64,000 bases of DNA, from NCBI GenBank assembly GCA_029204225.1, contig CM055092.1, positions 67,960,810 through 68,024,809 of the forward strand, given 5' to 3'. A model generated the notes under the pieces. That model saw nothing but the letters and a program-made list of their open reading frames with translations, was not told the DNA's origin and ran no database searches. Shown in pieces: positions 27,902 through 60,082 of the stretch. Positions within the stretch are counted from its first letter, which is position 1. Every line of letters begins with the position of its first letter. This stretch comes from Diphasiastrum complanatum (lineage: Eukaryota > Streptophyta > Lycopodiopsida > Lycopodiales > Lycopodiaceae). The position numbers were made by a program, and so were the translations under genes.

Positions 27902-29086
27902 TCAACCTATTCGTCCTGTTTTACAAGATTTGTTAACAATATATAACAGGGCTTGATGGTCGGTATAGAAGGCAAAGGTTTGGCCTAGTAGGTAATGTCT
28001 GAGTTGTTGAACAGCATAGACCATTGCCAATGCTTCTCGTTCGCTTGTGGTATAGTTTATTTCAGCAGACACCAATTGCCTGCTCAAGAAACGTATTGGG
28101 AAATCCTTGCCATACTCGCTTGGTTGTGCTAGGAGTCCTCCTATGGCATACTTACTGGCGTCGGTATGCACATGGAACTCTTTTGTGTAGTCTGGCGAAC
28201 AGAGTATGGATGCCATGGTAAGGGCTGTTTTTAACTCCTCAAAGGCTTTAGTACGCTCCTCGATCCATCTAGGGTCTACCATAACTAAATAAACGAGGCG
28301 TGCCTTGCCGACATAATCGATTATAAAGATGTGATAATAATTAGTGTGACCTAGGAAGACGTAAACTTCCTTCACTATTGCAGGTAAGGGCATTTCAACT
28401 ATTACCTTGATCTTTGAAGGATCGGTAGACATACCATCCTTTGAAATGATATGTCTGAGTACTACCGCATGGGTGACCCATATTTGACACTTATCAGGGT
28501 TGAGTAAAATTCCAAACCTATGACAGCGAATGAAGATTTTTCCTAATGCTTTGAGGTGCTTGTCGGGTGAAGAATGTACATCCAAATCATCAAGATAAAT
28601 CCCAATGATCCGGTGTAACAGGTCTTGAAATGCCATTTGCATAACACGTTGAAATGTCGAAGGGGCGTTACATAAGCCAAAAGGCATTACATTATAAGCA
28701 TAGACCCCATTTTCTGTTGCAAAGGTTGTCTTGTGTCTATCTTCAAGGGCTATTTGGATTAGGAAATAGCCACTGAAACCGTGTAGGAAGCTGAAAGCTT
28801 TAGCTCTTGCCATTTCCTCAAGGATTTGTGTAGTTAAGGGTAATGGGAAATGGTCTTTTTTCATAACCGCGTTAAGATTCTTTAGATCGATGCAGATACG
28901 AAGCTTGCCATTTTTCTTGGGTACTATCACAATGGGTGATACCCAATTAGTATGTTGGACTTCATAGATGAATCCAGCATCTAGCAATTTATTAATATCT
29001 TCATCGATCCACTCGCGATAAACATGGTTGCTTCGCTTAGCCCAAATAGGCTTAGCGTTCCCCTCTAAAGGAATTGTATGGACCAC
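27902..29086 (-). pseudogene. Gypsy reverse transcriptase and RNase H
   Basis: A 394-codon frame. It opens with WAKRSNHVYREWIDEDINKL and the RT entry region SPIVIVPKKNGKLRICIDLK, continues through FGLCNAPSTFQRVMQ and the catalytic IYLDDLDVHS (usual form YIDDI/YLDDI), then the thumb VYVFLGHTNYYHIFI, and RNase H with FHVHTDASKYAIGGLLAQ, SEREALAMVYAVQQLRHYL and FYTDHQALLYI. All three RT Asp positions and the first RNase H Asp appear retained, so the frame is fairly young. It ends at TGA (27902) just before DHLSRL. A one-base shift at about 29100 disconnects it from the protease frame upstream. It copies element RNA into DNA in the particle. Confidence 0.85.
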
Positions 29087-30139
29087 TATTTCAGGCGGAC
29101 CCCTTTCATCTTAGTATAATTCCACCCAAATACATCTCTGTATTTACGGAGTAAGGTCTCTAGATCAAACAGTCGACCTGGTGTGAGATGCGCTCCGACG
29201 TGAACAATGCGATCCACATCCTCGTCAGGATCTTTAAGGTTTAATGAGATTGTTTTAGCAGGTCCTTCAAAGGAGTAGAAACTTTGTGTGGGTTCCCGGT
29301 GTGGCTGTGGTAACTGGATAACAACATCATTCAGTGTGAAGTCTTTAAACTTTTTTGGGAGATCAAAGGGTGGTTCCACAAAGTTTTTGAAAACTTTGGG
29401 AATCATTTGCGTTGAGGCACTACCATATGTGGAAGTTCGGTCGGATTGGTTGGTTTCTGTCTGTTTAGACAAGGGCTTAATCAGTTGCTTAAGCTTCTCA
29501 CGCATCTGTTTTTTACGCTCGGTTAATTTTGTATCAATAATTTTAGTTTTTTGGAAATGAGGTTTTCGAGGTGGGTGTATCAATGTCTATAGAAGATGGT
29601 AGAATATACACATCCTCTGCAGCGATTTCGATACGACATCTGTTAGAATCAACACAGTCAACAGTGGCTAGTGCTTGACCCCAATTGATAATATCTATGG
29701 ATCTTGTATAGTGTTCGTGGGGTTGGATTGGGACAATATTTGATTCGTCATAAGTTGTTGATGACCAATCATCATAAACCTTGGCTGGCTTTATATGTCC
29801 AGTTGAGTCAACCGTGACCCATTTTTCGTTATTGCCGAAGGTTATCTTACTTCTTTTCCAATCCTGTACAACACCTGCCATCAGTAGCCAGGGTGTACCA
29901 AGAAGGAGTTTATAGGTATTTGCATGATCTGGTAAATCTAGAATGACACGATCGATTACAAATTTGACACCTGCAATGCGAACATTGATATTCGATAAAT
30001 GACCTGCAAGGTCTATAACTCGTTGATCAGCCATGCGAAGTTTGTAGCATGGTTGATCGACGGTATGGAATCCCCATGACCTTGCCAATGACAAGGCCAT
30101 TATACTGACACCTGAGCCACTATCAAGGATAGCGGACAC
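29087..30139 (-). pseudogene. Gypsy aspartic protease and linker to RT
   Basis: Minus strand frame 30139-29543 starts SAILDSGSGVSIMALSLARS: DSG is the retropepsin catalytic motif (usual DTG/DSG). It continues through LLLGTPWLL, which corresponds to the flap and second-turn region. The adjoining frame 29583-29086 ends VFGWNYTKMKGV, the 'F.W...DM.G' word that precedes RT. A frame change separates the two near 29560 and another near 29100. The protease would mature the Gag-Pol polyprotein. Confidence 0.75.
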
Positions 30140-30199
30140 TGCGGGATAGTCTGTAGGTCATAGGCAAGGTGATGCTAGTCCCCTTAGCAACACCTATAT

Positions 30200-31613
30200 T
30201 CATCAGATTCATAGGAATCTGATAAATTTCAAGAATCTCTTCTGGGTTTTGCTATTCGTCAAGATAGTAGGCAGCTGAAAACTACGATGGATATAGCATT
30301 GAAGCCCTGTGAAAGATTTTATCGCGCTATGGAATGGCATGGTGATTTGAGCTTGCAGGAGTTCAAAGAATACCTCAAGTCCCTGTAGGGATTGCTCTTT
30401 TTTGGGGATTTGAGCGAATAACAGACCTTCCGTATTTTCTTCCTCTCGCAAAAACTCATCTCTAAATTCATTGTACTGTCTTTGTTCCACTTTTGGGTCT
30501 AGGTAATCTTTGGGTAAAGTGGAAGTTGTCAAGGGGCTTCCCTGATGGTCAGTTGATTTGTCAATGTGTTGTTGTTGTTCTTGGTGTTGGCGCTGTGCTT
30601 GGGTAAGAACTTTAACAGGTTCTGATGATATATGACATGCTGGAAGGATCCTGTTAAGGTTTTTTATGACAATCTTTGAAACTGTGTTTGCGAACATAGT
30701 CTGGACACTCCGCATGGTATTGGTTCTTAACTTTACAATCAACCATGAAGTAGCCAGTTTTGCCACAAATAAAACATCGGTTGCTCATTGGTCCCATGGC
30801 AATAGCATAACCAGGATGGCTAGCTGTGCTGGAGTTTTTGGGTTCGTGGAATACTCATCCCGTTTGCATGAGCATGAGTTGCCACTTTGATATGGTTGAG
30901 AACTAGCAGATGAGAGTGTTGTATCGGGATTATATGTGTGATCATAGGAGTTATCCAGAAGATGTGTTTGTGCAGATTCTTGAGGGTGTCTATGTTTTTG
31001 TACTCCTAGATCAGGTTGTTCCCTTGGAGGTGGACCTAAGAGTGCCAACTGTGGTTGAGGTTTTATGGATTTGGTTGTTTCATGGTGGATAGTGCTGATT
31101 TTGGTTTTGTGAACCAAATTGTTGTCGAGGAGGTTGATAATGGCCACCTGACTGGTTGTGAGGCTGGTTCCTCGGGTTATAATAGAATAGAGTGAGGTAT
31201 GGCCCATAAAGTCACAGATGTTGCATTTGATCAAGGAAGTATCTGGGACTGGTTGGTATGATGGGCACTCATTGCTAGTGTGTGCACCGTTATAGTGAGG
31301 GCGCCAAGTATTCTCCCGTCTATGACGGATTTGGCTAGTGGGTAATTGACCTCGACATCGAGCTCTGGATAGATTTGAGAGTATTTTGAAACTCTTTCGT
31401 GAGTTTCTCCATTGTTGTTGGTGTTGATGCTTAAGCAATTCCATTTGTGTTTTCCATAATTGTTCTCTTGTTTCCTCATTTGGTCGAGCTTCCTGGACAG
31501 CACGATGTGCTCTCCGTTCATGTGGCTCATCGACATCTGATCCCTCGTCTTGTTCTCAAATGGCATCAGACATGGCTTGTTTCAATGATGTGTATTCATC
31601 ATTGGAACGAAGT
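30200..31613 (-). pseudogene. Gypsy gag C-terminal part with zinc knuckles
   Basis: Several overlapping minus frames. Near 31200: SLIKCNICDFMGH, a partial CCHC. Near 30780: CFICGKTGYFMVDC, a CX2CX4YX4C knuckle in which the usual His is Tyr, followed by CKVKNQYHAECPDYVRKHS. Pro/Gln-rich sequence lies between. Knuckles bind the element's RNA; with a changed His the second may not bind zinc normally. Frameshifts divide the region. Confidence 0.6.
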
Positions 31614-32120
31614 TCACGTCTTATCCATTGTGGGAGTCCAACGAGGAACCAAATGATGAGCATAGATTCGGTTGGTGTTCCTGTACCTAACTTTTAGTCT
31701 TTTAAATCGTTCTATGTAGTCACGTACTTTCTCATATTTTGTCATGTTGATGTTACTCAGCTTGACAAAAGAACTTTCGATCAAATGAAAGGGCTTGAAT
31801 CGTTTGATGAATGCTTCCTTAAAGAGTGACCAGTCTTGATTATCTTCACGATCAAGGTTAAAAAACCATTCTCGTGCTCGATCGATCATGGTCATCGAGA
31901 AGAGATGGACCATGGCTTCTGGTGATGTCTCGCCATAGACACCACATGCATTCTCAAAGACTTGAAGAAATCTTTGAGGGTCAGTGTTGCCGTCGTACTT
32001 AGCTAAATCTAACTTGGGAGTACGTTTTTCAGTACGCGGAACATTATTTGCAAAAGCCCCACTTAAGTGAGCTTGTGCATGTGATGATTTGGCAATGTGA
32101 AATCCACATCTACATTCCAC
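31614..32120 (-). pseudogene. Gypsy gag (Retrotrans_gag domain)
   Basis: The 168-codon frame contains RTPKLDLAKYDGNTDPQRFL, then REWFFNLDREDNQDWSLFKE and FIKRFKPFHLIESSFVKLSN, then YIERFKRLKVR. This is the canonical plant gypsy Gag core ('KY.G..DP..HL..F......A..WF..L......W..L...F...F'). The last residues shift frame near 31680. It is the capsid precursor. Confidence 0.8.
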
Positions 32121-32412
32121 ATTGCAAGAAAGAAAATAGGAAATCTAGATTATTCCACAACCACAACAAAGAGATCAAAGCATGTTCATAGGAATTTCAC
32201 TCAAGACAATAGCCAAGAACAAGGAGCTTCCAAAATTCCAGGAACTCGTGGAGGATTTTCTTGATTCATACAAGAGGAATGACAATACAATAAAAGCTCC
32301 CTCACAAGAGAGGAGGGTCTTTAAATAAGCAAGAGGGTTGCCCATGCGGAGCCTAAGTGGCAATTCCACTAATTTAGAAACTACAAGTGGAAATACTCCT
32401 GAGTTTTCTGGA
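32121..32412 (-). promoter_or_regulatory. Leader or promoter-like segment before gypsy gag
   Basis: On the minus strand a TATA-like CTTATTTAAAGACCC near 32315 is followed by a short leader into gag. A hairpin (GCAATGTG..CACATTGC, about 32093-32127) lies at the gag start. It may be an internal promoter or an LTR remnant; a primer-binding site is not evident. Confidence 0.3.
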
Positions 32413-35001: not shown

Positions 35002-35373
35002 CCACTAGGGACAATTCCCTAAGATGAGGATAGGAAAACACAAGAGAGACTGTGGAGCAAAACCACCCAACCAATCCTAGATCCCTCCTGGAGAATCCTC
35101 CTGGATCTAGCCCCCAAGCCATGCTAATGTGACAGCGAGAGGAGAAGTGCTCATCAGGTAACCTAGACCAAGTCGTCGACGGAATAATCACCACCTCAAT
35201 ATATAGAGAGTAGGATCCTGTGCATGAGCACATGCAATTCCCATGCAGGTCAACTATAAATAGGTCACAGTTCTACATGCATACCTCCTACCTATATCAG
35301 TCACACATACATGCACTACTCCATATGTCTCAATTAGAGTGTTTGGGTTCTCTCAATATTATTAGACACCAAC
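35002..35373 (-). mobile_element. 3' LTR of a minus copia element
   Basis: In minus sense it starts TGTTGGTGTCTAATAATATT at 35373, right after a pol frame. It includes a TATA-like CTATATAT (about 35206) and ends near CACTAGGGAC..CCACTAG at 35002, where homology to ORF1 copy B resumes on the other side. It does not match the LTR at 37654-38437 that lies at the 5' end of the same reading frames. Confidence 0.6.
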
Positions 35374-36530
35374 AGGCCTCGACTTGGAATAAAATCTAGG
35401 CGTGACCAATAATCTAGAACACTGGAGGGCCGATCTACCAATAATCTAGGTAGTAGTGTGAAGATCTCATGGCCTCTTTTGTCTTTTAGTCCAGGGAATG
35501 TGGACTCGTCGAACTTCACATCTCTGTTCGAAACAACCTTCTTCGTGGTTGGATCGTAGAGTCTGTACACATGTGTTCCGTTCGAGTAGCCGACCATGAT
35601 TGTTTGCTTGGATTTGTTATCAAGCTTGCTTTTCTTTTCCTTTGGAATGTGCTTGTATGCTGCACATCTAAATACTCGTATGTATGACAGATCAGGCTTT
35701 CTGCTTGTCCACATTTCATATGGTGTTTTGTTCTCCAACGTTGTCCTTGTAGATCTGTTCTGCAAGTGTACAGTTGCAACTATTGCCTCGGCCCAGAATT
35801 GACCTGGCAATTGAGCCTGGTGATCATGCATCTGGCTCCTTCGACTAGAATTTTGTTTTTCCTTTTTGCCACACCGTTGTATTCTGGTGTGTATGCAGGA
35901 GTGAACTGGTGTTCGATCCCCTATTTTTTGCAGAATCTTGAGAATTCTGTGCTTTTGTATTCACCTCCATTGTCAGATCTAAAGAAAGTAGTAGATCGTG
36001 TCATTCGGCTGTAATCATCTATGAACGTTAGAAAATATCTCGAATCTAAGAGCGAATCTATTTTCATCGGTCCACACACATCAGAGTGGATGAGCTCAAG
36101 AACTTCTTTGGCTCTTCTTCCCTCGTGTGTGAATGGATTCCAATGTTGCTTGCCTTTCTGACAAGCTTCGCTGAACTCAACCTCTGGCCTTGAAATCTTG
36201 AGATCTGTGACAATGTCCTTTCTGCTCATGTCATACAGGCTCCGCATGTTCTGATGATACATTCTTCTATGCCAGAGTTGACCTTCATTTTCTAAAGCAT
36301 TCAATATGCTTTCAGAGTTGCTGATTATTTTGGCCTGGTAGAGATTTCCTTCTTTGCATCCGACCGTCAACAACTTGTTTGTCATCTTCTCGATCATACG
36401 GCAAGTATTGCCATCGAACCAAACTCGAATGTCTAGATCTGCCATCTTGGAGACAGATAGCAGATCCTTTTTGAGTGAGGGCACACAGAGTGCTCCTGGC
36501 AGTTTTGCTTGGCTTGACAGTGTTCATAGC
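35374..36530 (-). pseudogene. Copia pre-integrase and integrase, internally deleted
   Basis: Minus frames: LKKDLLSVSKMADLDIRVWF, then the zinc-binding region QLWHRRMYHQNM..SEACQKGKQHW. The integrase core follows: LIHSDVCGPMKIDS, TFIDDYSRMTR, then directly FFRSDNGGEYKSTEF. The usual ~25 residues between the second and third blocks are gone. The frame resumes (35831-35334) with LPGQFWAEAIVATVHLQNRS and AAYKHIPKEKKSKLDNKSKQ..VGYSNGTHVYRLYDP. Reverse transcriptase and RNase H are absent: the frame runs into the 3' LTR. The element was therefore non-autonomous or the deletion came after insertion. Confidence 0.75.
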
Positions 36531-36766
36531 TATAGAGAGCCGATGCCTTTGACATCGTGTCTGCTTCCATCGCCTAGAATCACTGCTCTGTCATTTTTGA
36601 GTTCACAAAAGTTGATCAAGATCTTCTTGTTGCAAGTTATGTGAGATGTTGCTCTTGAAGCGATGACTACATCGTAGTCGTGTTCAAAGTAGCCTTGTCG
36701 AAGCTTCGTCGAGTATCGTGAAAGCTTCGTCACCTCTTTCAGCATCCTTTGATGACTCTGCAACAT
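36530..36766 (-). pseudogene. Copia protease with altered active site
   Basis: DVVIASRATSHITCNKK occupies the position of the copia protease motif 'W.LDSGAT.HM'. The catalytic Asp and the following Gly are Ala and Arg here, so the enzyme would be inactive. FCELKNDRAVILGDGSRHDV follows as in functional copies. Confidence 0.65.
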
Positions 36767-37520
36767 TTGCCTTTTCAGCTTTGTTTTTTCTTTTTGGATT
36801 GAATCTGTAGTCGTATGCAGAATGCCCTTTCTTCTTGCAGTGCATGCAAGGTATTGCTGGATTGAACCAGCATTTGTTGGCTGTATGGCCTGGTTTGTGG
36901 CAGTGATTGCAGGAAGAAGATTGTTGATTTGAGGACTTTGTCTTCTTGAATCTTGGCTTGTTTTTGTTCTTCTTCTTTCCTTTCATGAAGAGAGCCTTCT
37001 CTTGATCACTACTTCCCTCTCCTTCATCTCTCATCAGTCTCTCATCAGCGACAAGACTGACTGCTTTGTCAAATGTCATATCTGGTAGACTCAGTATGAG
37101 CATTCTCAGCGGCTGATAGGACGTCGGTAGAGATTTCATGAAGTACATCAGCTGCTGTGGTGCTGGGGCCTGGTGCTCTTGTCCTGATGCAGCGAGTTGA
37201 GCGAAGATCGTTTTGATCTTCTCAACGTGCTGATCTAACTGGTTGCCATCCCATCGTATGGATTGCAGCTGATTGTGAAGGTGCATTCTGTAGTCCTCAC
37301 TTCATACTTTTGCTTTAATCTTTCCCACGCTGCATGGCTACTTTTGTAGTCTTCAATCTGCATGATTAGATCTTAATTTATAGACAAAATGATGATCGCC
37401 ATTGTGCACTCATCCTTTCTGATCCATTCAGCTCTCCTCGGGTCTCCCTTTGGAGGCTGCACCTTTGAGAGTTCGATCACTGACTAGATGCCTTCGCCCT
37501 TCAGGAGTGTTTTGATTTTG
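36684..37520 (-). pseudogene. Copia gag with two zinc knuckles
   Basis: The 200-codon frame (37286-36684) reads HLHNQLQSIRWDGNQLDQHV, later SLPTSYQPLRMLILSLPDMT, then basic KGKKKNKNKPRFKK. Two CCHC knuckles follow: CNHCHKPGHTANKC, complete, and CMHCKKKGHSAYDY, in which the last Cys is Tyr. The N-terminal ~80 residues continue upstream to about 37520 in another frame. This Gag type is common for copia elements with RNA-binding knuckles; it overlaps the protease frame as expected. Confidence 0.75.
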
Positions 37521-43759: not shown

Positions 43760-44770
43760 GAATTATGGCATAAAAGATTGGGCCATCTCAACTTTAAAGC
43801 CATGTCATCTATTGTCAAAGAAGTCAAAGCTATTGGTTTGCCAAGGACCTTATCAAAGGAGCTCAAGCCTTGTGAAGCATGTGCACTTGCAAAGTCACAT
43901 AGTAGGCCATATCCAAGATCTAATATCAAGACTCATCATCCATTGGAGCTTGTGCACTCGGATATCCATTTCTCATCTTCATCAAGCTAAGGAGGAGCCA
44001 CTTGCTTTGTCACATTTATTGATGACTACACAGGATTTACATGGTTGTATCTTCCATCCAAAGCTATGGTGTTTGATTATTTTCTCAAATTCAAAACTCT
44101 TGTTGAAAAGCAATTCTCTTTCAAGCTCAAAGCTTTGAGATGTGATGGTGGTGGAGAGTATATCTCCAACAAGTTTCATGATTTTTGTGAGCAAGAAGGA
44201 ATCAAAGAGATTTCTCTTGTGCCTATTCTCCTTCTCGAAATGGGGTGGCCAAGAGAAAGAATAGAGCTCTATGTGAATGTTCCAAAGGTCTAAGAATTGA
44301 AGCATCCTTACCAAAGGAGTTTTGGGGAGAGGCCATTAATTGTGCCAATTATCTTTGCAATAGACTCCCTCATCTTGCTCTTGGAGGAAAGACACCTTAT
44401 GAGATGTTGCATAAAGAGAAGCTAAGGTTGATCACCTTAGAATATTTGGATGTATTTTCTTCGTTCATGTTCCTTTGGACACTAGGAAGAAAGATGATTC
44501 TAGCTCAATCAAAGGAGTTATGGCTGGATATTCATCTACCAAGAAATCCTATAGAGTCTTCATACTCTTTGCCAACAAGACTATTGAAAGTAGAAATGTT
44601 AGTTTTCATGAAGACCAAAAGGTCATTTTGGATGGGACTAAGATCATAGAATCTCATGATGCATCTTCTATAATCAATATTGAAGACAACCAAGATATGG
44701 TTGATAAAATTTCAATTTTTAGGACATTAATGATTGTACCTAACAATCATAGAGAGGTATTGGTTGCTTA
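43760..44770 (+). pseudogene. Copia pre-integrase and integrase fragment
   Basis: Plus frames: LGHLNFKAMSSIVKEV and LKPCEACALAKSHSRPYP (zinc-binding GAG-pre-integrase), then ELVHSDIH. After a shift come TFIDDYTGFTWLYLPSKA and LKALRCDGGGEYISNKFHDF. After another shift come AKRKNRALCECSKGLRIEA and KEFWGEAINCANYLCNRLP. The expected integrase acidic residues are recognisable in the separate frames. It stops near 44770 without RT. Confidence 0.75.
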
Positions 44771-45550
44771 ATTTATCAAGTTCTACACTTTAGATTTTGA
44801 TCTAGATTCACTACACTTAGATTTAAGCAAGAGCAATGGATCAAATCTTCATAAACAAGTGAGAGCGGCCTCACACATGTGGAGTATTGTCCACTGTACG
44901 GCCTGCACCTGAAACAACAAGTACATTGGTTCTTGATAGCAATCATTCAATAAAATCACAATTCTATTGACTAGAAATCTCACAAAAGTGTAGAACGCAA
45001 AAGTATCATCAATCTCATTAGCAAAATGATAATCCTTTTATGGATCAAGTACATCCACAAGTTTGGTACAATCCAGTAGGTCTTCACACGTGTGAAGAGT
45101 GCCACATCACTCAGATCTATCCATTTGATCCATCCTTGATCCTTATCCAAAGTTGACCTTCTAGAATATGGCTAAAGTCCAAAGAGCTAGTCCCCTAGAA
45201 TATAGGAATACTTCCTACAAAATAGGATCTCAGGAAAATGGTCAACTTTTATCTTCTAGAACTCTATACACACATGTGAACATCCACTTGCCACGTGGGA
45301 GCATTTACTCATGCACATGCATGGATAAGCTAATTTCTAGGTGACTAGTCAACTTGACTAAAAACTAGTCATGTTCACACTTAACTTGATTGATACAAAA
45401 TCAAAGTAGATATTTATAAATATGAAAAGTACTTTCTTTCACACGTGGGAACAAGCTTCACACGTGTGAAATCAGATCATGAACATTGTACTCATGATGG
45501 ATCTTTATTTACAATAAAAAATGACAAGTGAGAAGTAACAATTTTCAACA
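44771..45550 (-). mobile_element. 3' LTR of a minus copia element (left edge uncertain)
   Basis: In minus sense it begins TGTTGAAAATTGTTACTTCT at 45550, after the purine-rich AGAAGTGAGGAGTG that follows the RNase H stop. It contains CACACGTGTG at 45085-45094 and a pair of G-box palindromes at 45442-45468. The end on the 44.8-kb side is not clear. Confidence 0.55.
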
Positions 45551-45563
45551 ACACTCCTCACTT

Positions 45564-46310
45564 CTATTTTGGCAAATCTAATGTACATCTATCTACAATT
45601 TCAAGTGCATATCTTAACTTGAAAAATGGATCTTTGGACAATGGCTTGGTTAAGATATCAGCTATGCATTCGGATGATGGTACATGATGTAGTTGCACCT
45701 CCTTGGATTGTACCTTCTCCCTCACAAAGTGGTGAGCTATCTCAATATGCTTTGTTCTAGCATGGAAGATAGGATTGGAAGCAATTTGTTGAGAATCTTG
45801 ATTGTCACAATATATGTAAGGGATCTCCTCGACCTTTAGCACATGTAGCTCCTTCAAGAGTCTTCTTAGCCATAGGAGCTCTTTAGTTGTTGAAGTCAAT
45901 GCCTTGTACTCAGCTTCACAAGAAGATAGTGAGAAAGGCTTTTTGGAAAGCCAAGATATTACTCCTCCACAAAGGAATGTTGCAAATGCACTAAGGGACT
46001 TTCTATCCATCTTGTCACCTGCAAAATCTGAATCCGAGTAGGCTCTCAAGTGCAAGTTAGATCCTTCATAAAGTATGCCAAAAAATCTAGTACTAGAAAC
46101 ATATCTAAGCACTCTCTTGGTACTTTTCCAATGATGCACTAAAGGAGCTTGCATACTTTGAATCAACTTGCTTACACAAAAGCTTAAGTCAGGTCTAGTG
46201 ATGGTTAAATAGATTAGGGAGCCTATAAGCTTCTAAAGAGGGTGATGTCCTCAAAGGATGCTTCATCACCTTCATTAGTTGCTTTCACAACATGCTCCAT
46301 ACTAAGCTTT
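45564..46310 (-). pseudogene. Copia RT C-terminus and RNase H
   Basis: Minus strand: LLTQKLSMEHVVKATNEGDE and EDITLF (46310-46240), a stop region, then SLIYLTITRPDLSF. A clean 200-codon frame (46166-45564) follows: STKRVLRYVSSTRFFGILYE, YSDSDFAGDKMDRKSLSAFA, SSCEAEYKALTSTTKELLWL, PYIYCDNQDSQQIASNPIFH and ECIADILTKPLSKDPFFKLR. RNase H acidic residues (Asp in YSDSD, Glu in CEAEY, Asp in YCDN) are retained. The frame ends TAA at 45564, next to the polypurine tract. This is the best-preserved copia segment of the window. Confidence 0.85.
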
Positions 46311-51989: not shown

Positions 51990-52709
51990 AAGAGGGTGTG
52001 TCTTGTGTGAGAAACGAAACATAGCTCTAAAAAAAATGAAAACGAACACAAACTCGAACGGAAAGTGTTTGTGCAGTCTTGAATTTCATGGTTGTTTTGC
52101 TTGCACTATCTGTAAAACAACTTCTTCTTTGTCTGCGGATTTAATTGTTTTTTATGCTGTGCTGGTTTATGGTCTGGCTTTGATTGCTTCGGACCTTTCT
52201 TCTTCTTCTGCTTAGTCGTGCTCTTGTTGGTGTATAAGGCATGAGAATCAGCTGAGGAACTTCATTAGGGGATGATTAGAACTCAAAATGGGCCCTTTGT
52301 CAAGATGCCATTTTTGACTTTGCACACTTTCAATGCTTATGTGTCCCAATGAATGGTGTCCATCTGTGACAAACTATAAAAGTGGTTGACGGACGAAAAT
52401 TGAATTTAACTTTTTCGGCCAAATTTTTGTGATGTTCAAATATCCCGCCGGGCAGAACAAACAATTGTGATTGGACCACAATTACTACCCGAATACTCTT
52501 ATGCTGCCCGTCATTGTTCACTTGAGGTTGATTTGACGTCAATAGTCATAAACTGTGCTAATCCTTGTAGTTTAGGAACTTCTTGTCATTCATAGGTATA
52601 CCTCTCATTTTCTTCATTCTATCTCTTATTTTGGATTGTCATTCTTAGGTTTACCTCGCAATCTCTACATTCTCTCCATTCTCAGCTTGCGTACTCGTAT
52701 TTTCGACTA
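51990..52709. other. No gene recognised; left flank of the four-gene block
   Basis: Short frames only (52003-52215 plus, 52542-52330 minus). No terminal inverted repeat matching the right side (60.1-60.7 kb) was convincing. Confidence 0.35.
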
Positions 52710-53880
52710 ATGGCTACACATAATCGGAGACCAAGAGGAACCATTGATGCAATCAGTATTCACAATGAAAAGAATGCTAAAGATCAATGGATACCAAGAA
52801 TATATCAAAAATATCAATGGATCTTGATGCATCCCTCTGCAAAAGGCTCATTCCAAAAAAGAAAAAGATCGAATAGCATATATAGAAGCCTTGGAAAGGC
52901 GATAATGGACTTTAAAGTATCACTTGTCGGTCAAACTATCATGAAAGTTTTAGTTCAGCATGCTTATTTTCACAATGAGCTCAACATTCATGATCTGAAT
53001 CCAAATGATAGAAGGAAATGCAATTGTAAGTTTTCAAATTCAATTTTTTTAGAGTTAGCATTTTCTTTAAATTATATTTTTCTTGAGATGTTTTTGTTGG
53101 TTTTGCAGATTTGTATTCATCAAATTTCGTTGAATGACAAACAATTCAATCGATTGCAGAAATAATCGATGTCATACATTCTGATATCGGTATTTTACAA
53201 TATAAAGGTCATTCTCCAAAATCACTTTTAGAGTCAGGAGTTTTTTTTATGATCACACCTATTTTCCTGATAAAAATGATTTAGTTGGTAGATTAGAGCC
53301 ATATCCTCTACCAGATTTTTCGAGTGAGGAATGGATGCAACAATTTCAGAAACTTTTTGATCCAGGCTATATATTGATATTCAGAGTATATTAAAATGTA
53401 GCACTGGATCAAAGAATAATAGATTAAGTTGGTATCTACCTTTACTATTTTTGTTGATTTTTTTTTCCAAATGCAATGTTTGAAAAACAAAAAAATGTTT
53501 ATTTGTAAGGACTTGAGTGTTGATATAATTGCCGAGCTGTTGGATGATGGTTGGGATACAATACAAAATCAGCAAGTTGAGTGCAGAGTATGTTACTCAT
53601 CCATGACATTTAGATATCACATCGAAAAACAAATGCTCACTTTGCTGTCGTAAATAGAAGGTGGATTAAATGCAAAAATGTTTGGAAGCCACTTGATCAA
53701 GATTTTGGTATAAACCCTCAAGAGAAACTTTAGATAACAGTGAAAAGAAATGACAACATTCTTGCAATGGACGAGAAAGATTGGTGTCTCAATCACATTC
53801 GATCAGAGCTAGACATGTTGCAATTCGATCTACCTCAGTACTATCAATTTCGATTGAATGGTGTAAAGGTACGTTATGCC
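52710..53880 (+). pseudogene. Gene 1 of the 52.7-60.1 kb block, unknown protein
   Basis: It starts MATHNRRPRGTIDAISIHNE with a basic region (KGSFQKRKRSNSIYRSLGKA), then VGQTIMKVLVQHAYFHNELN. A probable 83-bp intron 53026-53108 (GTAAGT..TTTTGCAG) follows. Downstream coding pieces, in shifting frames, include DVIHSDIGILQYKGHSPKS, RLEPYPLPDFSSEEWMQQFQ and KLFDPGYILIF. After a gap come NRRWIKCKNVWKPLDQDFGI, a TAG (53731), and MDEKDWCLNHIRSELDMLQF (about 53770-53860), followed by a GTACGT donor-like word. I do not recognise the family. Clear amino-acid bias and splice words show that it once was a spliced gene; it converges on the H3-protease gene. Confidence 0.4.
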
Positions 53881-54164
53881 ATATAAAAATATTTTTTTTT
53901 TCTATTTCTAAGTGAATCGGTTTCATAAAATATATTAACTAAAACAATTTCTCTTGTGCAAGTAAGAGTAAGGCAGGAAGAGCATATAAAATGCAAAGAT
54001 ATTGGAACATCCATCAAAATTGAAGATCCATAGATTATGAACTATGGAATTTTGTATTATGTAATACAATTTTTTGTATACATCATTTTTGAAAATATAT
54101 GAACCACTTTTTCTATGAGGCTCTTTCATTTCTATGATCTCCATTTCCATGGTGCAAAACACAA

Positions 54165-54256
54165 TGTAATTGCAACTGGAGAATATGAGTTTTCAATAAC
54201 AAGATTCATTGTCTCCTGCAAGAAATGCATTATCTCCATCGGGGAGATCTCCATTA
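54165..54256 (-). pseudogene. Duplicate of the last protease exon
   Basis: EISPMEIMHFLQETMNLVIE then NSYSPVAI is a near copy of VSPMEIMHFRQETIKLVIEN in the last exon of the gene upstream (54837-54694), about 580 bp away in the same orientation. Confidence 0.55.
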
Positions 54257-54693: not shown

Positions 54694-56725
54694 TCAACTA
54701 TCTATGATCTCTAAATCCATTTCTCTAGTTGGAAGTAGCTTGGGTGGAGAACACTCGACCACTGCAACTGGATATGAATTTTCGATCACAAGCTTTATGG
54801 TCTCCTGCCTAAAGTGCATTATCTCCATTGGGGAGACCTTCGGACGTTTAAACCGAAAAAAAAAACATAAACACAGTTAAATGTAATTAATCAAAGATCA
54901 GTTAATAGAAATTTGAATATGAAAAAAACAAAAACACAGTTAAAAACTATTAATCGAAAATTACCTTTTTCAGATTTGGAAGTCCATCTTGTAGTGCAAG
55001 CCAATTAAAAAAGTGTTTGGCATTGCATACGGTATACCAACTACAACTGACAGAATCAACTTGCTGAGAGGACTGCAAAATCCAAATTTTAACATTATGA
55101 GATATCGGATCAACGCGCAGGATGTTATAATTAAATCTACAACGGAAACAGGCGCAAGAACATTATGAAAAGAAACCAAACAATAACTACAAGGGCGCGT
55201 TGAACCGATATTGATAAATTTTTACTTCTGCATCAACAATTTTTAGCTTCGTATATGCTTTTGCATTTGGTATTGAAAAGAGTTCCAATATTTTCTGGAT
55301 ATGGCTCCTGGCAATTTTGTGTGTGTGTGTGTGTGTGTAATAGAGTTCATCTTTAAACAAATTGGATTACACACACCCTCATCATTGACGTATAAGGACA
55401 ACACATATAAGCTCCAATGATTACTGCAATCAAAAAACAATAAATCTATGAAAATCAATGTGAATTCAAAATTCATATGAAAAATTTAACATAATAAAAT
55501 CTGAACTAAAGACAATTACTTTGCTATGTATGGCAACACGAGAATTGGAGTCCCTTGTTTGACATATTGGAGCATATCATCGTGCAGACTTTTGAAATCA
55601 GGAAAATCCAATACAGCCATGAATTAAAGGGGAAACAATGTTACATCTATAGAAAGTGGGGTCTGAAAAAACTCCATCTGGTTTTGAATGGCTCCATCTC
55701 CTACATTGTCACCTAGCATTTTATCCCTACTTTCTAATTCACCTGTATCTAAACTAAAAAGGGGGAGACTAGCATTGGTCTTTGACATCCTAAAACTGTA
55801 TCGAGGACATAAAACTTTAAGATATGTGTTTAACAAGTGGTCATACTGTACATATTGAGGAATATTTACAAAGGCAAGTGCAGGGTGTGACGGAAGTAAT
55901 ACAAATAAACCAGAAAAAGAATTGTCATTCAAAATTGATTCTACCTTTACATTAACAAAATCATCTAAATTATTTTCTAGAATAGGTGGAGAAGAACTAA
56001 TATTTATAAGGGTAGGAGGAGGAGATTTATTAGGAGAGGAAGATTTAACAGGAGAAGGTAAAGATGGAGTTCTAGGAGAAGGAGAAGGAGACTTAGGAGG
56101 AGAATTGAGAGGAGAATGCCTAGAAGAAAGAATCTCATCTAGAGGAGATGGCTTGGAAAAATCCCTCGCTTTATTTGGAGGGTCAAGAAACCTCTCCTTC
56201 TTTGAAATATTCCCGCTCTGTATATAAATAACAAGTTGGGATGATTGAGATTGCTTTTGTTTTCTCCTCTCTGAATCTTGTTTTGGAGTAGAGGAGGGAG
56301 CAGGTCTAAAGTATTCTGCAAATTTGTCATATGTGTCTTGAAGCCTGAACACAATCTCCATGGGCATGATGGTCACCCTCTTGGCATGGACAACTACAAC
56401 AATAGTATTTGAAAAAAATTTCACTTGAAAGTCCTCATATGCAGTGTGCAGCGTCTCAATTGCCGTTTATAGTCCATCTCACATCTGCAGATAGACTTCT
56501 TGTAACTTTTCTGATGGATCTATGTATGTGAGCTTTCAAAATCAGAAGGTTATTTGTCTTCTGTAGCTTCCAAATATCCTTGAGCTAGGGTGGGTCTCTT
56601 CTTCTGCCCCTTGGCCTAGGAGGAGGTGGTGGTGGACGAGTTGGTGGTGGTGGATTTCCCTGACCTGCTTCTGAGATTGGTATTCCACCAGGGTGGCCTC
56701 GTGCTATTTGCTTGGTCCACACCAT
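54694..56725 (-). pseudogene. Histone H3-like domain fused to a C48 (Ulp1/adenain-like) protease
   Basis: Exon 1 begins MVWTKQIARGHPGG at 56725. TKQ.AR...GG sits at the same residues as in histone H3. The tail then turns Pro/Arg-rich. Codon 47 is TAG, and from residue 48 LKDIWKLQKTNNLLILK aligns without gaps to H3 alphaN/alpha1, through SADVRW at the H3 DLRF position. After a frameshift near 56467 comes AIETLHTAY (alpha2), then HAKRVTIMPMEIVFRL (H3 alpha3). A Ser/Pro/Lys linker of ~150 residues leads to NVGDGAIQNQMEFF, one TAA (55624-55626), then DDMLQYVKQGTPILVLPYIA. Exon 2 (55423) gives NHWSLYVLSLYVND, with the protease His; exon 3 (55072-54965) QQVDSVSCSWYTVCNAKHFF, with Gln and Cys; exon 4 (54837-54694) VSPMEIMHFRQETIKLVIEN. 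The expected Asp position reads NS, not DS. All introns have GT..AG ends. Confidence 0.7.
55317..55339. repeat. (GT)n microsatellite in the protease gene
   Basis: About 11 GT units directly after the codons where the protease Asp is expected (MNSI on the minus strand). It may have expanded inside the exon or at its end. Confidence 0.9.
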
Positions 56726-56984: not shown

Positions 56985-58117
56985 AGATTGATGAGTCTGT
57001 TGAATCTTTAACTGTTCCATTGATCGAAGCATCTGCACCTACTCCAGTTGATGCAGATGATGTAGATATTGATATAGGGGTTAAAGCTGAAGCATCTATG
57101 GCTTCAGATCATAGAAAAACTCTCTCTCATTCTATAATCCTCTCTGATTTTCTTCCATCTGCATCTCCTGTTAATCAATTAACTCTACTCGATGTTCCTT
57201 TATATTTTATAAATAATGAAAGTTATATTTTATTGAATGATATAGAAGATGTTTTGAATTTGAGAGAGGATGAAATCCTCTCAATTTTTGCTCAAAATTT
57301 ATCTGAATTTTTTGACATTGTTGATTACTCATATGATGACCTTGAAAGTGAGATAGATTATGATAAAGATGGCAATTGGAAATCTGGCAAATAGGCCTTG
57401 GAGGTCATGATTGCAAAATCTAAAGCCTATGAAAAAACTTTGCCTATAGAGGAGGAATTTTTGGAATTCCAAAGAAAATATCCCCCAAGGCCTAGATATA
57501 TCCCCTCCAGAAATGTAGAGGCCATTGGAGAACATGCCATTAGCAGAGCAAACGTTGCTGGTTACGATGATTATGATCTGGTACGTAGATATTATATTGG
57601 TATCGATATTGTTCAGTTTTCTTATTGAGATTGCAGTGTTATGTATAATTCTAAATTTATTTTCTTTTCTCGTTTACAGGATGCTATTGAAATAGATGCC
57701 TTTGGTATGAGACATGGAGATGTTCGTGGAGTATTATCCAGGAGAAAAGATGTGTCTCTATCTCATTATTTGAAACACTTTCAAAATAATGAGATTTGTG
57801 TATATCATTCATCTTTTAATCCATATGCAACCACTGTCATTATGGCCATCAAATCATTATCAATTTGTTTAGGAGGCCATAACTACGCAAGAGGAACATA
57901 TAAAATTTTTTTTGTGAAAAGAAGTTTGGCTACTAAGATATTGAGTTATACTCCCAATGAGATTACAAAAAGATCATCTGTAATGGCCTTTTATTCGGGT
58001 TACATTGATATGAGCAAGAGGAAAAATTTAGAATTTTTGGATCCATAGAAAAGGAGATTATTCCTTCATGACAACACCATCCGTCTGAATCTTGAAGAGG
58101 ATGATGATGATAATTAG
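56985..58117 (+). pseudogene. Gene 3 of the block, unknown two-exon protein
   Basis: Exon 1 reads EKIDESVESLTVPLIEASAP, an acidic stretch VDADDVDIDIG, then NQLTLLDVPLYFINNESYIL and LNDIEDVLNLREDEILSIFA. After a TAG at 57392 it continues LEVMIAKSKAYEKTLPIEEE and FQRKYPPRPRYIPSRNVEAI to YDDYDL (57580). The intron is 57581-57679 (GTACGT..TTTACAG). Exon 2 reads DAIEIDAFGMRHGDVRGVLS, LSHYLKHFQNNEICVYHSSF, ICLGGHNYARGTYKIFF and SSVMAFYSGYIDMSKRK, a TAG at 58046, and an acidic tail ending DDDDN at 58117. Only two stops interrupt about 370 residues, so decay is mild. I do not recognise the family and suggest no activity. It converges on gene 4. Confidence 0.45.
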
Positions 58118-58312
58118 TTAATTTTCTATAATAGATTTTTGATATATTACAAGGATCTCTCTTTTGTTATGAATTTGAATGCCTTTTGAAATATCGTAAT
58201 ACTTGGCGAGTTTTTAGCTTGATATCTAAATTGTGCTCTTCTATAAAACCACTGAAAAAGTTGAACTGTGTCCTCCATGATTTGTTGCTCTATGAAATAC
58301 TCCCCTTGCTTG

Positions 58313-60082
58313 TCAATGAGATTTTTCCATGCCTTGTGATGACTTGATACTTAAGCTCCCATATTCCTTTGCAAAATAAGTTGCATGATGAAGAAGGATG
58401 TGCTGCAAACAATTGTTTTGATTAGTTACATCAGTAGAAAAATATATAAGCCTGAATGAAAAAAGAACTAGAAAATGATATAGATTAGCACCATGTAATG
58501 AGTGACGTTGTCTTTTCCCCAACAATCATGTACAGATTTTACAAATGTGGTGCAATGATTTGGCAAAGTCCTTATATCTTCTAATGATAGGTTTTCTTTC
58601 ATGATAACACATGAGTTTGTCTAAGTTGGTCCACACTTGTCCCTTTTCCACTCGATAACTTCCTTCCAGTGTTTGTGTGGCTTGAACAATTTCTCTCCAA
58701 ATTTTGTATCTGACACTTGATTCTTTGCATGTGTGATTGGATAAGAATCTTCTTGCTTTAGCACCTCCAATTGATGGCTTATTAGGAACGTTTTTTTTTA
58801 ATTTTTTCGGAGAGTCTGTCACTTTTTTCAATGATGACATTCCTTTTATGTAATCCTACATTTGACAGAACTATTTCCAACCTTCTATTTGCTGCTTTAG
58901 CCACAGACTCTGGTTTATGATTCCATGCTAGTAGAATATGCAGGTAAATAAGGTTTTCAATAATACGAACTTCAGCATGCAATGTGCACATGTGAACATA
59001 TTTTAATGGAATTGGCTAAACACTTTTCATATTTGGATCTTCAGCTTCTCATGTTGGGCCAGTGTTTTTTGATCGTCCCAAATTCATATTGTAGCAATTC
59101 TTCATGCAATAAAGACATGGATGCTTTGATGTTGCCCCATGAGAGACATTATACATACATTTTAATGTTTTCAAATCCCCTGCAAGGTGCCATTGAATTT
59201 GAAAACTTCCATGGTTTTCGATCGTAAATTTCTCACCCTCCAAATGTCTCTTTATAATCTTGCCATAATTTGTTCTTGAAAATATCCATGAAAGTAATTT
59301 ATGGTCCTCTTTCAAGACCTATAGAGAAACAAGTAATGCATGACATGTCAATAAAAACTGGCAAGGTATGAATTGTTAATAAAGATATTCTAAATGAAAA
59401 TTGAAATGTATACCTAGAATGCCGCCAACCACCGTATGTGATTTTTCGATTGAACACTAAACGTTCGATCATTTGTATCTGAAATTTTGTTCATCAAAGT
59501 GACACTCACTCATTCCAACTTCTGACCCTTGATAATTTCATATTCATCCAATTTTATTACAATAATGATATTTTCATTTACTTGATGTTCGTCTAGTTTA
59601 TAGAATCGAATAATGTATTTTGGAACATTTTCAATATCAAGAAAAATATTATTGCAATCGTTGTAATTGAGCTCACCATATTCTGATTTGTATAATTCAG
59701 TTATATGAAGTGGTTGGCCAACTACTTTGAACATTCCATCATTATAAAAATTTCTAGCTAATCTTACCCGATATGGATGCAAAAGATAGATTTTCTTCAC
59801 CATTACTTGGGAAAAAGCTTCTTTAAATATTCTAAAAAAAGTAGAATAAGCATTTATGCTAATTTTAGATACATCACATGCACCTTGTATCACATTTGCA
59901 TCCAAGTATGATTGAACCTTAATCAAAACAGTCTCTACAATTTCATTTTTCATTTTTTCAAATCGAACATTTTTTATCATTTCCTTTACTGACTTTCTTG
60001 GTAAAACATGACTTAAAGATGATCCAATGCATGAATGGTCTGTCAAATATACATGTCGATAATGTGGTAGAGCACAAGACAA
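58313..60082 (-). pseudogene. Gene 4 of the block, transposase-like, family not named
   Basis: Exon 1 (60082-59414): HYRHVYLTDHSCIGSSLSHV, QSYLDANVIQGACDVSKISI, later ENIIIVIKLDEYEIIKGQKL and a TGA. The intron is 59413-59319. Exon 2: LKEDHKLLSWIFSRTNYGKI, then LAGDLKTLKCMYNVSHGATS with KHPCLYC, two stops, PIPLKYVHMCTLHAEVRIIE. A frameshift near 58800 follows, then NKPSIGGAKARRFLSNHTCK and LDKLMCYHERKPIIRRYKDF. The order 'acidic strand, GDLK.L....G...A....PC.YC, IPL....LH...RI.E' is one I associate with transposase-like proteins of animal and plant mobile elements, but I cannot name the family. The CX2C suggests a zinc site, and DEYE and GD could hold catalytic acids. The TGA and TAG stops and the shift show decay. 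Confidence 0.45.

Follow-up and report, generated by a model that had tools for sequence, protein, structure and literature searches.

The window analysed here, a stretch of 64,000 nucleotides of the Diphasiastrum complanatum genome (contig CM055092.1, positions 67,960,810 to 68,024,809), holds a decayed copy of a gene that couples a histone H3 domain with a protease-like region. Homology of the first domain with histone H3 is confirmed by profile matches, and comparison of genomic copies supports the assignment of the H3 and protease-like parts to one gene. This gene sits in a repeated, high-copy DNA transposon, an assignment supported by the copies, whose transposase is RAG1/Transib-like according to a structure prediction for one of its relatives. 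Purifying selection has acted on the H3 fold and on three protease segments, and Lys4 is the sole lysine kept in the H3 tail.

The H3-Protease Gene

In the window, the gene lies on the minus strand and is made up of the following parts:

56308-56725, minus strand: histone H3 domain with its tail (PF00125, PDB H3 chains)
55520-56725, minus strand: exon 1, with H3 tail, H3 fold, Pro/Ser/Lys-rich linker and N-terminal part of the protease-like region; the frameshift and stops fall here
55226-55423, minus strand: exon 2, with the putative catalytic His (HWSLY) and an Asn (MNS); an (AC)n repeat is followed by a further kept stretch (55226-55321)
54965-55072, minus strand: exon 3, with the Gln/Cys box (QQVDSVSC)
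54694-54837, minus strand: exon 4, C-terminal region
54150-54248, minus strand: tandem duplicate of the last exon (repeat D7)

The Met at 56725 begins MVWTKQIARGHPGG, which follows the pattern of an H3 tail, and the tail start ARTKQTAR of histone H3 is recognised. PF00125 matches the window region in two pieces, with E = 0.0045 (profile positions 26-76) and E = 4.2e-5 (positions 78-116); these are consecutive parts of the profile, both under the curated cut-off. H3 chains of the PDB match the second piece with E = 5.7e-5 or weaker, and the best 60 PDB rows for the window piece are all H3 or H3-like, one of them a CSE4 fusion. In another copy, C5a (L023/L024), a stretch of 351 amino acids is open from the H3 Met and matches PF00125 with E = 2e-19 (70.5 bits for a cut-off of 26.4), residues 33-127 aligning to profile positions 24-118. 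This match rules out a likeness to H3 by chance. The Lys56 position of H3, judged by eye, is also kept.

Read in all frames, the minus strand from 56725 to 54694 is a broken copy and not an open gene. A stop closes the frame after residue 46, a frameshift falls within loop 1 of the fold, and a further stop precedes the protease His; the read-through protein has no full-length relatives at E <= 0.01. A search of the assembly (1.74 Gb, 5176 contigs) with a window query of 55 amino acids returned at least 150 scored matches from 4435 initial candidates, each with E = 1.2e-20 or better and 76-100% identity. Some of these lie on small contigs and may repeat one locus (L006 and L007 are nearly identical). 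We compared 25 copies, namely that of the window, ten with 20-kb surroundings and 14 with 2.6-kb stretches; they were picked for an open frame and for their resemblance to the piece in the window, hence the sample is non-random.

In six of the 25 copies, all six blocks into which exon 1 was divided, beginning with the H3 tail, share one frame, with three stops in C1a and in L034, two in C24a and one each in C8a, C21a and C5a. At the three joints, a donor GT is found in 14/16, 17/19 and 14/15 of the readable copies and an acceptor AG in 21/21, 17/17 and 13/19, the last acceptor being the weakest. Because these dinucleotides are kept in most readable copies, the introns are supported. The predicted protein starts with the H3 tail and the H3 fold, continues with the Pro/Ser/Lys-rich linker (about 115 amino acids in C5a) and ends with the protease-like region, which is spread over four exons. 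A second match to the last exon also occurs downstream of the gene in C4a, C8a, C21a, C17a, C5a, C6b and C10a.

A sequence-only reading of the window had proposed a minus-strand spliced gene joining H3 to a C48 protease. The H3 domain, which PF00125 recognises, stands, as do the motif in its tail, the coordinates given and the Met at 56725. That the two domains form one gene is supported by other copies in the genome, which show both together, and exon 2 also includes the stretch that follows the repeat. On the other hand, the C48 assignment falls below threshold, and the first exon proposed for the window copy is broken by in-frame stops and a frameshift.

The Protease-Like Region

The second part of the protein is ULP/adenain-like and probably a protease. 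Its best match to PF02902, obtained with one hand-mixed spliced piece, has E = 0.17 and 12.2 bits for a cut-off of 20.7, and none of the eight copies of set A2 matches this family; we therefore use the label ULP-like and not C48. A PDB profile search with the protease part returned nothing, and one spliced protease sequence met SENP8 in the PDB at E about 1. Scanning the genome with PF02902 gave three matches among the best 150 of 520 candidates. One of them is a host gene (L043, a frame of 257 amino acids), which we take to be SENP8/DEN1-like. When the element region is compared with this host protein, the His (HWSL), the acid position (MNS vs. YDS) and the Gln-Cys box (QQVDSVSCGWY vs. QQENGYDCGVY) align. 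The hhalign E-value is 0.04, but with a probability of 1.3%, and BLASTP gives E = 0.010. With standard gap costs, the score was reached by 6 (L037), 3 (C6b) and 36 (window) of 1000 shuffles, and with looser costs by 1, 1 and 4 of 1000, respectively. The Cys is replaced by Tyr in C8a, L029 and L032, as decay would give. A predicted model of the region was useless, with a predicted local distance difference test (pLDDT) value of 32.

The H3 Tail and Selection on the Gene

Residues of the tail were counted over the copies readable at each position. Lys4 is kept in 21/21 copies, Thr3 and Gln5 in 20/21, Thr6 in 18/21, and Ala7 and Arg8 in 16/21. Lys9 is found in none of 21 copies, with Gly, Val, Ile or Ala instead, nor is Lys14 (Ile in all 21) or Lys27 (0/21). 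Lys18, Lys23 and Lys37 are absent from all 23 readable copies, as is Lys36, replaced by Arg in 22 of them. Position 40 is a Lys in a single copy, C1a. The ratio of nonsynonymous to synonymous changes (dN/dS) is 0.37 for tail residues 1-8 and 0.71 for residues 9-43. A deception of host chromatin, as proposed from the sequence, would fit a tail that keeps Lys4 alone of its lysines.

Codon-framed Nei-Gojobori counts put dN/dS at 0.26 in the H3 fold (21 copies), 0.35 in the N-terminal protease part (21 copies), 0.18 in the His exon (20 copies) and 0.29 in the Cys exon (18 copies). The values were 0.61 for the tail (23 copies) and for the region before the protease (22 copies), 0.48 for the last exon (18 copies) and 0.42 for the stretch after the His part (21 copies). 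In the other genes of the element, they were 0.40-0.76 for transposase parts (3-7 copies), 0.41-0.44 for gene 2 (7 copies) and 0.53 for gene 3 (9 copies). Because both the counting method and the choice of copies by tblastn bias such ratios, neutral decay was simulated for four segments, the H3 fold and three of the protease; in each of the 30 runs per segment, 20 copies of a single ancestor changed by 10% apiece and took up small indels. The neutral ranges of the four segments were 0.55-0.89, 0.52-0.80, 0.40-0.71 and 0.42-1.04. The mean neutral value of the method is 0.55-0.72, not 1, and selection is therefore claimed for these four segments only, whose observed values (0.18-0.35) lie under all 30 simulations of each; the remaining segments are at or near the simulated ranges. 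In one gapped nucleotide alignment, third-position transversions of the H3 fold are 4.2 times the mean of first and second positions, as compared with 0.9-1.0 in introns and flanks. The same count is weak for the protease exons (0.98-1.34), for which the codon-framed count gave the stronger signals.

The seven copies WIN (window), C5a, C8a, C21a, C6b, C6a and C1a were also compared pairwise. In most of the 21 pairs, the likeness of the H3 tail, the H3 fold and the exon-1 protease parts is some 3-15 points lower than that of the pieces of transposase, gene 2 and gene 3 in the same pair; the pair C8a/C21a shows almost no such difference, exons 2 and 4 often show little, and the low C6a values in the N-terminal part of the protease are a frameshift effect. 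This lower likeness of the first exon suggests that the H3-protease module has been swapped between subfamilies.

The Element That Carries the Gene

Alignments between pieces of the copies extend over some 10 kb. Following the reading direction of the H3 gene, the order is transposase, gene 2 on the opposite strand, H3-protease and gene 3, again on the opposite strand. The window copy spans 52263 to about 60049, where it is truncated inside the transposase, and shows the following features besides the H3-protease gene:

52263-52294, no strand assigned: right terminal inverted repeat, outer end at 52263; same repeat in C1a, C8a, C21a and C6b
53519-53883, plus strand: remnant of gene 3, a small protein (tblastn with the C5a open frame)
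56990-58114, plus strand: remnant of gene 2 in two or more open pieces, running divergently from the H3 gene; no Pfam family
58213-58441, minus strand: transposase piece that includes the presumed catalytic Glu (GMEKSH)
58676-59318, minus strand: transposase region with the second Asp, CxxC and HxCTLH (relatives P0001-P0017)
59435-60049, minus strand: transposase region with the first Asp (KLDE); the likeness to other copies ends at about 60049

Inverted repeats CATTAGGG...CTCAAAATGGGCC bound both ends of C1a and C8a and recur at the right ends of C21a, C6b and the window copy. In C1a and C8a, the two copies with both ends, no target-site duplication was found by eye; these copies are old. Transposase pieces are present in seven of 11 neighbourhoods (C6a, C1a, C8a, C21a with the last piece only, C5a, C6b and the window) and gene 3 in eight of 11. 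The D, D, E motifs, which presumably correspond to the RAG1 residues, occur in order with CxxC and H..H. The relative P0001 is 43% identical over 95% of the element's transposase piece of 417 amino acids, and its catalytic core is predicted to adopt a RAG1/Transib-like fold. No other family stands near the top of the Foldseek and VIA-align lists, which by itself carries no weight. When the transposase alignment was used for a profile search of the PDB, RAG1 was not found; hence the link to RAG1 is one of predicted structure alone. The transposase matches no Pfam family, and thus no Mutator-type one. With its inverted-repeat ends and its transposase, the element agrees with the earlier idea of a mobile element carrying its own H3 and an Ulp1/adenain-like domain.

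Other rearrangements were seen around the copies. In C21a (L017/L018), a 4.2-kb inverted duplicate (94%) of the half with H3 and gene 2 adjoins the copy. In C6a (L011/L012), an insert of 1.15 kb, at -1263 to -111 before the H3 fold, breaks the region of the H3 tail; it has related ends (CATTAGGGCCCTTTTTG...) and is probably a non-autonomous relative. Elsewhere in the window, Gypsy- and Copia-like polyprotein pieces were noted by eye in the translations at 27902-32144, 35334-37301 and 44191-46232.

Possible Functions of the Fusion

Methylation of H3K9 and H3K27 provides the main silencing marks, and SUMO proteases could oppose SUMO-dependent silencing. In the mechanism that we propose, the H3 part would pair with H4 and enter nucleosomes on the element. 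Without Lys9 and Lys27, these nucleosomes would receive no silencing methyl marks, Lys4 remaining methylatable. The protease would take SUMO, or a similar modifier, off nearby silencing factors, the fusion serving to bring the deSUMOylase to chromatin, and the transposase gene would stay expressed. In plant VANDAL elements, VANC strips silencing from its own family, and some VANC genes carry an Ulp1 domain (passages in PMC5735166, PMC10398659, and PMC13317346). By analogy, the H3-protease gene may be the anti-silencing gene of the element. We see the chances as evenly balanced that the fusion is an anti-silencing protein keeping the transposase gene expressed. The complete scenario, in which a transposon with a RAG1-fold transposase builds unsilenceable chromatin on itself, by means of its own H3 variant in nucleosomes, devoid of K9/K27 marks and provided with Lys4, and of a deSUMOylase, is more tentative, and we would sooner doubt than accept it as a whole.

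Several observations weigh against this interpretation. Exon 1 is whole and open in none of the 25 sampled copies, and four of 11 neighbourhoods (C4a, C17a, C10a, and C24a) lack the transposase, whose RAG1 fold match was obtained with the relative P0001 and not with the element's own protein. The acid position of the protease-like region is Asn, and no significant database match was found for this part. Arg2 of the tail is kept in just 8/21 copies. Finally, for the His and Cys exons the upper bootstrap limits (0.48 and 0.50) reach into the simulated neutral ranges, and the tail, the region on the linker side and the remaining genes do not fall clearly under neutral.

To the main rival we give a minor share of the probability: the H3 part may tie the transposition complex to nucleosomes, for site choice or for retention of the element, with a protease that cuts the fusion to free H3 or, like adenain, processes other proteins of the element. 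Such a tether agrees with an H3 fold that is better conserved than the tail, with the adenain/Ulp1-like order of the motifs and with animal RAG2, which reads H3 Lys4 through its PHD finger (passage in PMC8355894); however, no PHD or other reader domain was matched in the 15 pieces scanned with Pfam. Somewhat less probable is that the C-terminal part is no protease at all, being either a diverged and catalytically dead C48 fold that does no more than bind a ubiquitin-like modifier, or a domain of another kind. The missing C48 matches in set A2, the low hhalign probability, the Asn and the poor read-through model would all be explained, but not the selection on the His and Cys exons, the alignment of His, Gln and Cys with the host SENP8-like protein or the presence of a recognised C48 domain in another H3 protein, P0078 (see below).

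Plant transposons often capture genes, and the fusion could consist of functionless host fragments (transduplication) that were passively amplified. The broken first exon of all sampled copies and the near-neutral tail and linker side would then be expected; we nevertheless hold it to be improbable, given dN/dS values below every simulation in four segments and the transversion excess in the H3 fold, even if that excess is weak in the protease exons. Viruses carry histones and adenain-like proteases, and the gene could be what is left of an endogenous virus or a Polinton-like element that had both. We would hardly expect this origin, because of the RAG1/Transib-like fold in the transposase relative, the lack of polymerase (protein-primed ones included), capsid and integrase matches in the 15 Pfam-scanned pieces and the lack of a relative in IMG/VR (partial searches with the exon-1 alignment or P0078) or of a match in a phage collection; the viral origin with chromatin packaging envisaged by the sequence-only reading is thus not upheld. 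Returning to the anti-silencing mechanism, if the fusion does enter nucleosomes, selfish DNA would fight silencing by altering the histone itself, and the element would be an experiment of nature on the H3 tail residues that count in transposon silencing.

Comparison With Known Systems

Anti-silencing DNA-binding proteins of transposons and transposon Ulp1 domains are already known; a transposon-borne H3 fused to a protease-like domain did not turn up in literature searches covering open-licence papers. With RAG1/Transib systems (ProtoRAG, RAGL, and HzTransib), the element shares the transposase fold predicted for its relative P0001. In contrast, its ends are CATTAGGG instead of CAC, therefore it is called RAG1/Transib-like and not filed as Transib, no RAG2-like gene was recognised, with neither kelch nor PHD matched in the pieces scanned with Pfam, and the element carries the H3-protease gene. 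VANDAL elements, with VANC and Kaonashi (an Ulp1-bearing VANC), are likewise plant DNA transposons with accessory genes, one having Ulp1, tied to escape from silencing (passages in PMC13317346 and PMC5735166). They are of the Mutator type, however, and a histone is not mentioned in these VANDAL passages. Ginger1 transposons also have an Ulp1 or OTU protease and sometimes a PHD finger, but these domains stand inside an integrase-type transposase (passages in PMC2836005); the word histone is absent from PMC2836005.

Exon 1 from four copies served as query for a protein search that scored the 7985 candidates with the most shared words and gave 167 proteins; the 120 of them that were listed are histone proteins by their Pfam columns. 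P0078 (653 amino acids, on a contig of 5,852 bases) combines PF00125 (9.5e-37) and PF02902 (1.5e-7, above the cut-off) in one protein. Unlike in the element, its protease precedes the H3 fold, and the Cys half seems, by eye, to come before the His half. The H3-C48 pairing may thus also exist outside the element, perhaps independently, or P0078 could be an assembly or prediction error. Other split H3 proteins from assemblies were also seen (P0105, P0122, and P0121); they begin like an H3 tail and end with the H3 fold, the two being separated by a long insert. Compared with histone H3 and its variants, the element's protein shares the fold and the tail start and differs by the loss of tail lysines 9-37, a Pro-rich tail and a long extension with the protease-like region.
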